A stretch of 64,000 bases of DNA from a virus: the IMG/VR virus record IMGVR_UViG_3300033049_000020, positions 777 through 64,776 of that record. One strand, written 5' to 3'. The notes beneath the pieces were generated by a model. It was not told the origin of the DNA and ran no database searches. It saw only the letters and a program-made list of their open reading frames with translations. A program made the position numbers and the translations under genes. Shown in pieces: positions 18,776-23,203 of the stretch; position 1 is the first letter of the stretch; each line of letters starts with the position of its first letter.

Positions 18776-19369
18776 ATGACAACAACAACAGTAACTGAAG
18801 CAATAGCCACAATACCACCATATGCGAAAGTAAAAATTTATTGGAACGAACGCCCAGAGAACTACTCAAGAGCGAATAAGAACCTTATACGTAGTAAGTT
18901 CGCTAAGAAGTACGGTATTGACAAAGACAGGGTGAAAGTCGTTTACAGACCCGTTAAAATCGATAATAAGGGTAATATTATCAAGATGGATGGGGTCAAA
19001 ATAGATAACATCGGTGACGTAACCTATCAAAGACAACTTTTCAAGGCATGGATTACCATGAACGGAAAGAAGATAGATTTTGACCTGTTGATGAAATTAG
19101 ATGATAAGGTCAATGGCGACCTTAATATTGATATTGCGGAAAATATTAACAGGAAGTGGGAGTTCGAGTGGATTTATCTTGACAACTTCATTTCATACGG
19201 AGATGATAACTTTTTACCTATAGACAACTATAAGGGATTAGTTATGGTCAATTCCACACCAGCAAACCAAGGCGGTAAGTGTGTTAGGTATGATACTAAG
19301 ATAAAAGTAGAGTACGATAAGGTTAAAATAATAGAAAAATTGGGATTTTTACCAGACGAACTGAAATAA
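18776..19369 (+). CDS. Rad50/gp46-like ATPase, N-extein fused to split-intein N half
   Basis: 197 aa. The N-terminal part precedes a Rad50/SMC ATPase head: FEWIYLDNFISYGDDNF (strand before Walker A), then VMVNSTPANQGGK, the start of a P-loop. The sequence continues CVRYDTKIKV, an intein block A (Cys1, then DT), and stops after 29 intein residues. The missing part of the P-loop (Thr and KFLLFG helix) is at the start of the C-extein encoded at 21335. By itself this polypeptide cannot bind ATP; protein trans-splicing would restore GGK-T. Confidence 0.82.
   Translation: MTTTTVTEAIATIPPYAKVKIYWNERPENYSRANKNLIRSKFAKKYGIDKDRVKVVYRPVKIDNKGNIIKMDGVKIDNIGDVTYQRQLFKAWITMNGKKIDFDLLMKLDDKVNGDLNIDIAENINRKWEFEWIYLDNFISYGDDNFLPIDNYKGLVMVNSTPANQGGKCVRYDTKIKVEYDKVKIIEKLGFLPDELK
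19280..19366 (+). other. split intein, N fragment (29 aa)
   Basis: Cys169 of the N-half protein (TGT at 19280-19282) follows Gly-Gly-Lys and starts CVRYDTKIKVEYDKVKIIEK, fitting intein block A. The very short N fragment is like the atypically split AceL/VidaL inteins (about 25 aa) rather than the canonical ~100 aa. The catalytic block B must then lie in the C fragment. Confidence 0.8.
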
Positions 19370-19431
19370 AATACCTAATATCTTTACCTTTCTGATTATA
19401 AGGTTATATTTATAGTTAAATGTAATCTATT

Positions 19432-20445
19432 ATGGGTAAAGTATATAAATTTAATGAAGATGAAATTAATCGAATGGTGAGTATGTATGTTAATAACTTT
19501 GAATCGACTAGGATGATAGCTAATAAATACAAAGTTGACCCAAGTGTTATCACTGCTAGATTAAAAACCAATGGTGTGAAGTTACCGAAGGGGTCGGCTT
19601 ATAGTAAACAATATTGGTTGGATAGAGGTATGCCTGAAGATATGGTTGACTACCATATAAAAACATTGCGCCCAGTAAACAGAGAGTATTGGGTCAAATT
19701 AGGGTATTCAGAAGAAGAAGCTATTCTCCAGATAGAAGGTCAGAAATTAGTATCGCTTAGAGGGTGTATAGCTAGATTCGGTGAAGTTGAGGGGGTTGAG
19801 GTATGGGATGGTCGTGAAACTAAGAGAAGTGAGTGGGGTAAAATGGGACCTACAAATATCCAGTATTGGATAAATAAAGGTTATTCGGATGATGAAGCTA
19901 AAATTAAATTATCGGAACGACAGTCCACATTTTCAAAAAAACTCTGCATTGAAAAATATGGAGAAGAAGAGGGTCTGAGAGTGTTTACCAAAAGACAGGA
20001 AAAATGGTCTAAATCGCTAAATGAGAATGGTAATATGAAAATCGGTTATTCCAAGATATCACAAGAATTATTTTATGAGTTGTTGGGTTGTTATGATATT
20101 GGTGAGAGAGAAAATGTTAAGTTCGCCACACACAATGGCGAACTTAAATTGAATAAAGATAATGGTGGAATATGGTTATATGATTTCGTTGATTTAAGTG
20201 GTAAAAAGATAATCGAATATAACGGTGATATGTATCACGGAAATCCGAAGAAGTATATCGCTGAGGATTATCCGCATCCATTCAGGAAAGATATAACGGC
20301 ACAAGAGATATGGAATAAGGATAAATTAAAATTAGATGTGGCAAAGGATAACGGTTATGAGACCTTGGTCATATGGGACAGTGAATATAGGTGGGGAAAT
20401 AAACGAAAGGTAATTAATAGATGTATAGAATTTTTAAAAAGATAA
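19432..20445 (+). CDS. EDxHD/Vsr-like homing endonuclease between intein halves
   Basis: 337 aa. The C-terminal domain contains KKIIEYNGDMYHGNPKK and later DKLKLDVAKDNGYETLVIWDSEY, a Vsr-fold pattern like the EDxHD homing nucleases known from fractured genes with split inteins. The N-terminus is a helix-turn-helix-like domain (STRMIANKYKVDPSVIT). The middle has three related repeats: YWLDRGMPED, YWVKLGYSEEEA and YWINKGYSDDEA. An ATATTTATA motif (19406-19414) precedes it. Its place exactly between the intein halves argues that it maintains or spread the insertion. Confidence 0.75.
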   Translation: MGKVYKFNEDEINRMVSMYVNNFESTRMIANKYKVDPSVITARLKTNGVKLPKGSAYSKQYWLDRGMPEDMVDYHIKTLRPVNREYWVKLGYSEEEAILQIEGQKLVSLRGCIARFGEVEGVEVWDGRETKRSEWGKMGPTNIQYWINKGYSDDEAKIKLSERQSTFSKKLCIEKYGEEEGLRVFTKRQEKWSKSLNENGNMKIGYSKISQELFYELLGCYDIGERENVKFATHNGELKLNKDNGGIWLYDFVDLSGKKIIEYNGDMYHGNPKKYIAEDYPHPFRKDITAQEIWNKDKLKLDVAKDNGYETLVIWDSEYRWGNKRKVINRCIEFLKR

Positions 20446-20967: not shown

Positions 20968-21334
20968 AGAAATAGAAATAGGTAAATTAAACGATATTTA
21001 TGAAAAATATGGTGACTTGGGGTTTAAAGTTGACACCCCATATGGATTCCACAATATAAGTTGGTGTGGAATCACGGAAGAAAATGCTGATGTTTATAGG
21101 TGTGAATTAGAAGATGGTAAATACGTTGAGGGTGCCGATTACCACAGATTAAAAAAAGAAGATGGTGAATTTGTGGTATTAAAGGAACTGGAGGTCGGAG
21201 AAACCGTCCAAATTATTGGTGGTGAGACATCTAAAGTAAAATCAGTAGAATTACAAGACTTTAAGGATACTTTGTATGATATACAAGTAGATGAAGTTCA
21301 TCAGTATTACACTAACGGTATTGTATCTCATAAT
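20960..21334 (+). other. split intein, C fragment (125 aa)
   Basis: Begins MTKEIEIGKLNDIYEK and contains VDTPYGFHNISWCGI and YRCELEDGKYVEGADYHRL (block B-like, with His). It ends with blocks F/G: LYDIQVDEVHQYYTNGIVSHN followed by Thr+1 of the extein. The last His-Asn and +1 Thr are compatible with full splicing. The wording closely parallels atypically split inteins with a short N fragment. Confidence 0.82.
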
Positions 21335-23203
21335 ACGGTTCTACTCATCGATACGATGAAGTTCTTATTATTCGGTGTTACGAGTAAATACAGTAAGAAC
21401 GAACAAATCTTTAATAAATATAGAGACAAGAATACATTAACCGTTAGAGGGTTGATGAAGATTGAGGGTGACACTGACATTATCATTGAGAGAGTTCTGT
21501 CTCGAAGAGCTAAAAAAGATGGTAGTTGGGTAGTCACGAACCTTTTAAAGTATTATCGTATTCTACCAGACGGAGAGGAAGAGGCATTGAACGAGGAAGA
21601 CGCTTCTGCAACCACGAAGAAGATTCGTTCTGTAGTAGGTACAGTAGACGATTTTGACCTTGTTACCTTGGCTACAGGTAAGAATCTTGACAATATGATT
21701 GATATGCCAGTTGGCCAAAGTGGTAAAATATTTACTAAGCTTATTGGTCTGGAGGTTATGGAGATTAAGGAAAAGCTTGCCAGAGACATGTATACTAAGT
21801 ACGCTAAGACAATGAAGTCTAACATTTACAATAATGTAGAACTTGGGGGTGAGAAAGACCAAGACGAAGTTAAATTAGAGCTTACTGTGGATTTATTGGA
21901 TAAGGCTAATGTTAGATTGGGTGAAGTAACTACCGAATTATCGAGATTAGATACAAAGAAGATTGAACTATTTAACAGTAAGGAGAAGGTTGACGAACGG
22001 TTAGTCATGACCAATCCAGTTACCTTGCAGAGTAATATTGACGAGATTACCAGAGTAGGTAAGAAAATAAAAGCAGATTTGGATGAGTTATCTGAGTCAC
22101 TAACTAATGTTGGTGATGTGGATTTTGACGAATACAAGGAAAAACGAACTAATGACTCTCTTAACGAAATTAAGACTAACATCGCACTCAAAAATGCCGA
22201 AATAGAGCGACTTAGGATTGAAATCATTTCATTAAAGAAGGCTGGAGTATGTCCTACTTGTGATAGACCATTGGATGACGTTAATCATGAAGACCATATT
22301 ACTGAATTGATAAATAAAGGTGTTACATTAACAGGTGAAGTAACTACATTAGGTGGAGAGGAACAATCTTTGGCAGACCAAGTGGATGCCTTCAAAGATG
22401 TGAAGGAAGAACTAGACAGGAAGCAGAGATTGGAATTAGAAGTAGACCGAACTAAACTTAAAATAGAAGCTCATAGGAATAAATTAAGAGAAGCTTTAAA
22501 CATCCAGAAGGAGTACGAATCTAATGTTAAGGCTATCGAGTTTAACAAGAAGGTAGAGGCAAGTCTAGACATAACCAATGCTGATATTCAGGCACAAAAT
22601 TATCAGAAAGATGAGGCAATCAAGAAGATTCAGATAATTCAGAATGAAAGCGAGAATCTAACCACTAACATTTCAAGAATTGAAAACCTTTTACTTGAAA
22701 TGGGTAAGGAAGCTGAGGTCGAAAAACTTTTTAAGGTCTACATTGACATGGTAGGTAAGAAAGGAGTCTCAAAAATTGTATTAAGGTCAGTCTTACCAAT
22801 AATCAATTCTGAATTAGAGAGATTATTGGATGGAGTATGTGACTTTGATGTTGAGGTGAGGATGGATGATAAAAACGAAGTCCACCTAATGATAATCAAG
22901 AATGATATAGAAGGCTTACTTAAAGGTGTATCAGGATTCGAAAGAACTGTGGCTGGAGTAGCACTAAGAACTGTATTGGGAGTTGTTTCAACTCTCCCGA
23001 TGCCAAACTTCATTACGTTTGATGAAGTACTGGACAAAGTAGCTCCAGAAAACATACCACAAATGAGGCCACTTTTTGATAAAATAAAGGACATGTATGA
23101 CAAGGTATTTGTCATAACTCATGATGATTTAGCGAAGGATTGGTCGGAGCAAATCATCACTATAAGTAAAGTGAAAGATATCTCTAAAATTGACCTTAAA
23201 TAA
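20960..23203 (+). CDS. Rad50/gp46-like ATPase, split-intein C half plus C-extein
   Basis: 747 aa from ATG 20960; an ATG at 20936 in the same frame lies deeper in the preceding gene. Residues 1-125 are intein. The extein starts TVLLIDTMKFLLFG, completing Walker A. Long coiled coils flank a zinc hook (VCPTCDRPL). The C-terminal head has the ABC signature (GVSGFERTVAGVALR), Walker B (NFITFDEVLDK) and H-loop (FVITHDD). Joined to the 168-aa N-extein it gives about 790 aa. It should work with the Mre11-like nuclease in recombination-dependent replication. Confidence 0.85.
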   Translation: MTKEIEIGKLNDIYEKYGDLGFKVDTPYGFHNISWCGITEENADVYRCELEDGKYVEGADYHRLKKEDGEFVVLKELEVGETVQIIGGETSKVKSVELQDFKDTLYDIQVDEVHQYYTNGIVSHNTVLLIDTMKFLLFGVTSKYSKNEQIFNKYRDKNTLTVRGLMKIEGDTDIIIERVLSRRAKKDGSWVVTNLLKYYRILPDGEEEALNEEDASATTKKIRSVVGTVDDFDLVTLATGKNLDNMIDMPVGQSGKIFTKLIGLEVMEIKEKLARDMYTKYAKTMKSNIYNNVELGGEKDQDEVKLELTVDLLDKANVRLGEVTTELSRLDTKKIELFNSKEKVDERLVMTNPVTLQSNIDEITRVGKKIKADLDELSESLTNVGDVDFDEYKEKRTNDSLNEIKTNIALKNAEIERLRIEIISLKKAGVCPTCDRPLDDVNHEDHITELINKGVTLTGEVTTLGGEEQSLADQVDAFKDVKEELDRKQRLELEVDRTKLKIEAHRNKLREALNIQKEYESNVKAIEFNKKVEASLDITNADIQAQNYQKDEAIKKIQIIQNESENLTTNISRIENLLLEMGKEAEVEKLFKVYIDMVGKKGVSKIVLRSVLPIINSELERLLDGVCDFDVEVRMDDKNEVHLMIIKNDIEGLLKGVSGFERTVAGVALRTVLGVVSTLPMPNFITFDEVLDKVAPENIPQMRPLFDKIKDMYDKVFVITHDDLAKDWSEQIITISKVKDISKIDLK

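Follow-up and report, generated by a model that had tools for sequence, protein, structure and literature searches.

Dassa et al. reportedly described, in 2009, fractured genes in which the halves of a split intein flank a Vsr-like homing endonuclease gene within an essential phage gene. In class 1 inteins, splicing generally begins with an acyl shift at Cys1, after which the N-extein is transferred to the +1 residue and the terminal Asn cyclises. Atypically split inteins possess an N-terminal part (IntN) of 15-37 amino acids (aa) and are split after beta2 (the S1 site) or alpha1 (S2) (PMC13014065); in the phage terminase large subunit (TerL), this part measures 25 aa in AceL-TerL, 37 aa in GOS-TerL and 30 aa in Cat-TerL (PMC13014065, PMC11766414). 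Here, we analyzed 64,000 nucleotides of viral DNA (positions 777 to 64,776 of IMG/VR record IMGVR_UViG_3300033049_000020; hereafter the window), in which a Rad50/gp46-like ATPase gene is interrupted between the P-loop Lys and Thr codons. With a probability of roughly 0.92, we consider the interruption to be a class-1-like split intein at GGK|T, itself broken by a Vsr-type endonuclease gene, the whole forming a homing cassette whose trans-splicing rebuilds the ATPase.

The element in the window resembles the AceL-, GOS- and Cat-TerL inteins in its short IntN of similar length, its split after alpha1 (S2) and its phage ATPase host gene, and it shares Cys1 with AceL-TerL. Unlike the TerL inteins, however, its host is Rad50/SbcC rather than a terminase, its +1 residue is Thr rather than Cys, its gap carries a Vsr-like endonuclease gene together with a passenger gene, and contiguous alleles are known at the same site. 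VidaL (6vgv), which also has a naturally short IntN, is the nearest solved structure by both profile and fold, but its IntN is 16 aa long and split after beta2 (PMC13014065), whereas that of the window is 29 aa long and ends after alpha1. An earlier note on this DNA compared the intein with an AceL/VidaL type; the length and position of the split are nearer to AceL- and GOS-TerL than to VidaL. The PolB split intein of Pseudomonas phage MIJ3 likewise has its halves on two open reading frames (ORFs) with an endonuclease ORF between them, but that endonuclease is of the HNH type, the split is canonical and the host gene is another (PMC6892783). In contrast to the fractured genes of Dassa et al., the split lies near the N end, the host gene is new, and empty, contiguous, endonuclease-deleted and passenger-carrying forms occur at one site.

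None of these components is new in kind: fractured-gene split inteins, Vsr-like endonucleases in such genes and phage inteins with a short IntN are all on record. A literature search with partial journal coverage found no report of a split intein in Rad50, gp46 or SbcC, and Rad50/gp46 appears to be new as a split-intein host gene. Weightier than the new host is the same-site series of empty, contiguous and split forms, the last with and without the endonuclease: near-identical exteins that differ in predicted cis versus trans splicing make the origin and reversion of split inteins testable in natural sequences. In addition, the twenty-odd natural short-IntN pairs (about 29 + 125 aa) are candidate peptide-ligation tools.

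The interrupted Rad50 gene and its intein

The N half of the fractured gene (18776..19369; this and all features of the gene and its gap are on the + strand) encodes 197 aa and ends at its own stop, TAA. Its N-extein of 168 aa matches uninterrupted relatives and ends NSTPANQGGK, the final Lys of GGK being residue 168, and is followed by the 29-aa IntN (19280..19366; CVRYDTKIKVEYDKVKIIEKLGFLPDELK), which runs from Cys1 (residue 169 of the half, codon 19280-19282) to Lys29 and comprises block A (CVRYDT), helix alpha1 and the end GFLPDELK. After a gap of 1590 bp between this stop and the next intein codon, the C half (20960..23203) begins at ATG 20960, a start conserved among the split loci, rather than at the mechanical ORF start, GTG 20936. 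It consists of a C-terminal intein part (IntC; 20960..21334) of 125 aa and a C-extein (21335..23200) of 622 aa. IntC carries the block B His (GADYH), block F (YDIQVDEVHQYY) and block G (NGIVSHN), and its C-terminal end, YDIQVDEVHQYYTNGIVSHN, closes on IVSHN. The C-extein opens with Thr+1 (codon 21335-21337), the P-loop Thr, and continues as a Rad50/SbcC-like remainder with a CPTC zinc hook and a FITFDE Walker B motif. Each of the two separate frames is thus an extein joined to an intein part, and the predicted joined product of 790 aa, with the predicted junction NQGGK-TVLLID, equals the intein-free homologue. No second intact rad50 was found, the C half being matched once in the 152-kb record. 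The earlier note had read GGK followed by Cys and CVRYDT at the end of one gene, and an intein end followed by Thr at the start of another some 1.6 kb downstream, with parts of 29 and 125 aa; residues, lengths (Cys1 to the stop, and ATG 20960 to the terminal Asn) and spacing were all borne out.

When related loci were sought, the C half recovered 44 and the N half 5. In 35 relatives without the intein, the exteins are joined directly as GGK|T, or as GGK|S in the close relatives L005 and L007; because these read unbroken, the intein borders are exact. The 29 and 125 residues are absent from these relatives, the opposite of what would be expected if they were ordinary Rad50 sequence. IntC profile scans yielded 29 intein-bearing contigs, of which 22 are distinct, the window being the 23rd, and all 23 distinct loci fall in one gene family at one border.

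The intein profile search that the earlier note proposed gave a match of IntC to TIGR01443 (intein_Cterm) at 24.5 bits (cut-off, 15.6), and a profile of eight IntC sequences matched VidaL in the PDB over its whole length (E 1.3e-8), followed by gp41-1. The predicted structure of the contiguous intein of locus L009 (pLDDT 92.8) also found VidaL as its best PDB match (template modelling score 0.81/0.84, E 1.1e-10), and every match listed for it is an intein or an intein-like Hint domain. The block B His and the terminal Ser-His-Asn are invariant in the first 8 IntC sequences and then in 18 aligned rows, Cys1 is invariant in the aligned IntN set and in every intein inspected, and Thr occupies +1 in all loci inspected; in the TxxH motif of block B, Ala replaces Thr in the intein of the window. 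In the L009 model, the split point near residue 28/29 falls in the loop between alpha1 (14-21) and the next helix (34-44), which places the atypical split of this class-1-like intein at the S2 site, with a short IntN ending after alpha1.

Selection points in the same direction. Between the window and its close relative L002, the ratio of nonsynonymous to synonymous divergence (dN/dS) is 0.11 for IntN, 0.054 for IntC, 0.15 for the endonuclease gene and 0.41 for the passenger, and the exteins are also low; these ratios show both intein halves to be under purifying selection. The claim of a naturally split, short-N intein between the P-loop Lys and Thr is therefore upheld by profile, fold, catalytic residues, intein-free alleles and selection. 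A decayed pseudogene, in which a dead intein has left the phage without the ATPase or with two separately folding halves, is very improbable. Some phage genes do tolerate being split in the absence of splicing, an example being a gene for ribonucleotide reductase that a homing endonuclease has divided (cited in PMC10448857), but the low dN/dS in IntN, IntC and both exteins, the invariant catalytic residues and the precise borders in all loci argue against decay, and with the halves unspliced the Lys and Thr of the P-loop would remain on separate polypeptides.

Joining at the RNA level is even less probable, indeed barely credible. The gap would then be a group I or II intron, possibly split, with a homing endonuclease, and the frames would be joined before translation; an endonuclease within an interrupted essential phage gene would also fit such a mobile intron. 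However, Rfam intron families gave no match in 18700-23300 even at E 1, the flanking coding extensions are intein by profile, fold and selection and would be discarded by an RNA splice at K|T, and two relatives carry the intein as a single open frame with no intron. A structured RNA in the gap was likewise rejected, as Rfam gave just a sub-threshold chance match to SNORD58.

The host was identified through its C half, which matches phrog_77 (SbcC-like; E 7.6e-33), as does the uninterrupted relative L011 across residues 100-787 (E 8.3e-46). Just upstream of the fractured gene lies an SbcD/Mre11/gp47-like nuclease gene (17457..18287, + strand; Metallophos E 2.6e-9; SbcD-like phrog_100 E 1e-18), the partner of the interrupted ATPase. 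Together with the hook and Walker B motifs of the C-extein, for which the Pfam Rad50_zn_hook and Walker B matches were sub-threshold, these observations uphold the naming of the host as a phage Rad50/SbcC/gp46 ATPase. The gene directly downstream of it (23277-24125) encodes a sigma factor of the sigma-70 type that has regions 1.2, 2 and 4.

The closest inteins from isolate phages lie in TerL, several of them interrupting Walker A at GK|T/S, and phage SCTP-2 adds a RecA/UvsX-like intein to this group; no relative was found in the bacterial and archaeal genomes searched. The TerL gene of Delftia phage PhiW-14 (L080, 2400-3100) shows an apparent Walker A split (ARQMGK|CVQGDT), with an unannotated terminase N half upstream of the annotated gp17, and that of Escherichia phage vB_EcoM_G2494 (L086, 748-3859) an apparent intein-like interruption that includes a nuclease-like ORF and whose sole annotation is misc_feature.

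The predicted endonuclease gene and the proposed cassette

Besides the intein parts themselves, our analysis adds to the earlier note a gap endonuclease, a passenger gene and same-site contiguous, endonuclease-deleted and empty forms. The gap gene (19432..20445) encodes 337 aa with an N-terminal region resembling a helix-turn-helix, repeats and a C-terminal nuclease domain, and matches phrog_22677 (E 5.7e-28). In its predicted fold, the nuclease domain resembles Vsr (1vsr and 1cw0, probability 1.00) and I-Bth0305I (3r3p, 0.96-0.99), unlike in sequence, where there is no significant match, and D251, E262, G265 and H269 are invariant in 13 of the endonucleases as aligned among themselves rather than to a known active site. 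The fold supports the prediction of a Vsr/I-Bth0305I-like homing endonuclease. The same endonuclease occupies this position in 13 split loci and in three further distinct ones. In one locus (L074, 6028-6996), the N-terminal part is that common to the family and a different nuclease end passes the DUF559 cut-off; by sequence comparison this is a nuclease-domain swap at the same insertion.

Between the IntN stop and the endonuclease start lies a leader, CTTTACCTTTCTGATTATAAGGTTATATTTATAG (19382..19415), which is alike in the endonuclease-bearing loci and possibly a promoter; the window contains its exact core, GGTTATATTTATA, a single time. Passenger ORFs, where present, lie between the endonuclease gene and IntC. 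That of the window (20449..20967; 172 aa, stop TAA 20965-20967) shares its last 8 nt with the start of IntC; its sole other close copy is in L002, and its C-terminal part is common to the passenger of L058. The passengers vary by locus (approximately 170 aa in L002, 140 aa in L058, 71 aa in L067, and 76 + 59 aa in L016), and family searches assigned them to no known family.

From these elements, we propose that the endonuclease gene interrupts the intein after alpha1, such that the host gene would be read as two proteins. IntN and IntC would then associate, Cys1 would begin the acyl shift, the N-extein would move to Thr+1, and the terminal Asn would cyclise, yielding an unbroken 790-aa ATPase whose P-loop is complete. 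The purifying selection on both halves lends indirect support to such trans-splicing. Before it, neither half would possess the full ATP site, and because splicing is what would bring Lys and Thr of the P-loop together, ATP should be bound only afterwards, and the activity of the ATPase would depend on splicing. The predicted endonuclease would cleave the intein-free allele, and the cassette of IntN, endonuclease, passenger and IntC would spread by homing into such alleles at the conserved P-loop codons; the mobility of the cassette is indirect evidence for this. If the endonuclease were lost, the trans-splicing intein would stay, because only a precise deletion restores the gene. In phage T4, gp46/gp47 are the Mre11/Rad50 orthologues and are thought to be the chief resection enzymes (PMC3016280), and intron homing needs recombination functions that possibly include gp46/gp47 (PMC2988022). 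By analogy, if the T4 role holds here, the element may be lodged in a gene whose product assists its homing.

Mobility and the series of forms among relatives

The best empty site is provided by L013 and L016, whose flanks are approximately 91% identical and between which 1961 bp are inserted exactly between the Lys and Thr codons; L015 and L006 form a second such pair (1532 bp). Just downstream of the L016 insertion, 13 of 107 nt are mismatched with L013, followed by 1 in 470 nt; this cluster is only suggestive of co-conversion, as background divergence further out is similar.

Synonymous divergence (dS) between the window and L002 is 0.40 in IntN, 0.70 in the endonuclease gene, 0.37 in the passenger and 0.53 in IntC, in comparison with 1.08 and 1.68 in the exteins; between L016 and L067, the corresponding values are 0.21, 0.35 and 0.68 in the cassette, and 2.31 and 1.38 in the exteins. 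The lower dS of the cassette makes it younger, in these phages, than the exteins surrounding it. In the extein (host) tree, intein-free status needs eight changes, the intein tree groups the loci differently, and the nearest extein relatives of the window after L002 are the intein-free L005 and L007. This mobility signature in the compared sequences shows that the cassette moves between phages.

An intact endonuclease gene is retained in 16 of the 23 distinct loci. Five split loci are without it, with gaps of 27 bp (L056), 43 bp (L069), 96 bp (L064) and 558 bp (L058 and L062). L069 retains 25 of 25 bases of the L070 endonuclease 3' end, L058 both early and late pieces of the gene, and L064 part of the leader in a weaker match, and these remnants are scars of endonuclease deletion.

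It is unlikely, in our assessment, that the split intein is real and the endonuclease a free-standing bystander rather than the mover of the cassette. Its cleavage is a prediction, endonuclease-less and decayed forms occur, and another homing endonuclease candidate lies elsewhere in the window (13274-14077; phrog_314, E 4.2e-20). However, one family occupies the same place in 16 distinct loci, and low synonymous divergence spans IntN, the endonuclease gene and IntC together.

Several observations weigh against our explanation. PF14890 (Intein_splicing) remained sub-threshold with IntC (20.5 versus 35.8 bits). A PDB sequence search with uninterrupted relatives gave no match, and the Rad50 identity is therefore based on PHROG profiles together with the CPTC hook and the neighbouring SbcD-like gene. 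A search of the PDB with the endonuclease sequence likewise gave no significant match, its likeness to Vsr being by predicted fold only, with Foldseek E values of 0.018-0.2 and a predicted template modelling score (pTM) of 0.45. Local recombination of any cause could partly account for the lower dS of the cassette. Finally, the intein trees are weakly supported internally, and for this reason the order of events is not settled by them.

The usual expectation is that a contiguous intein becomes split by endonuclease invasion, and we infer this direction, from contiguous to split, here as well. A contiguous cis-intein is found in two distinct loci, L003 and L009 (147 and 151 aa, each also on a second contig), which read through where the split forms carry a stop and a new ATG. 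The exteins of L003 and of the split locus L008 (96-bp gap) are 90-99% identical per 100-base block and approximately 94% overall, in comparison with approximately 57-85% in IntC and 75% in IntN; judged by these identities, the two inteins are different lineages in near-identical exteins.

Alternatively, L003 and L009 may have been derived from split inteins by deletion of the endonuclease, stop and start, a possibility to which we give slightly less than even odds. The nearest relative of the L003 intein is the split form with the 27-bp gap (L056; 95/96 in the DNA tree), and trees with outgroups place both contiguous forms among the split ones, with weak support. At the split point L003 lacks codons, a pattern that would result from deletion between GAA repeats, and it is just there that the lengths of L003 and L009 differ, as independent re-fusions might. 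However, an approximately unbiased test does not reject contiguous forms outside all split ones (p 0.17), nor contiguous forms together (p 0.285 and 0.083). Somewhat more tentatively still, split inteins may heal: L003 and L009 would have re-fused in frame, with cis and trans forms interconverting at one site, and the cassette would reside in the recombination ATPase that resects, for phages, the breaks used in its own homing, with passengers that a contiguous intein could not carry.

Other features of the window

At 43975-44350 lies a phage tmRNA gene, matched by Rfam RF00023 at 90.7 bits, whose proposed tag ends in AALSA. Two adjoining tRNA genes at 46559-46707 have the amber-reading anticodon CTA; both were called tRNA-Pyl by ARAGORN and one was also found by Rfam. 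Amber readthrough was considered and rejected as the basis of the split, since the N half ends in TAA, and few long ORFs in the window change, or gain, when TAG is read as Gln. Further downstream of the fractured gene, a 946-aa protein (28286-31126) matches the anti-restriction family phrog_7245 in its C-terminal part (E 2.7e-10).

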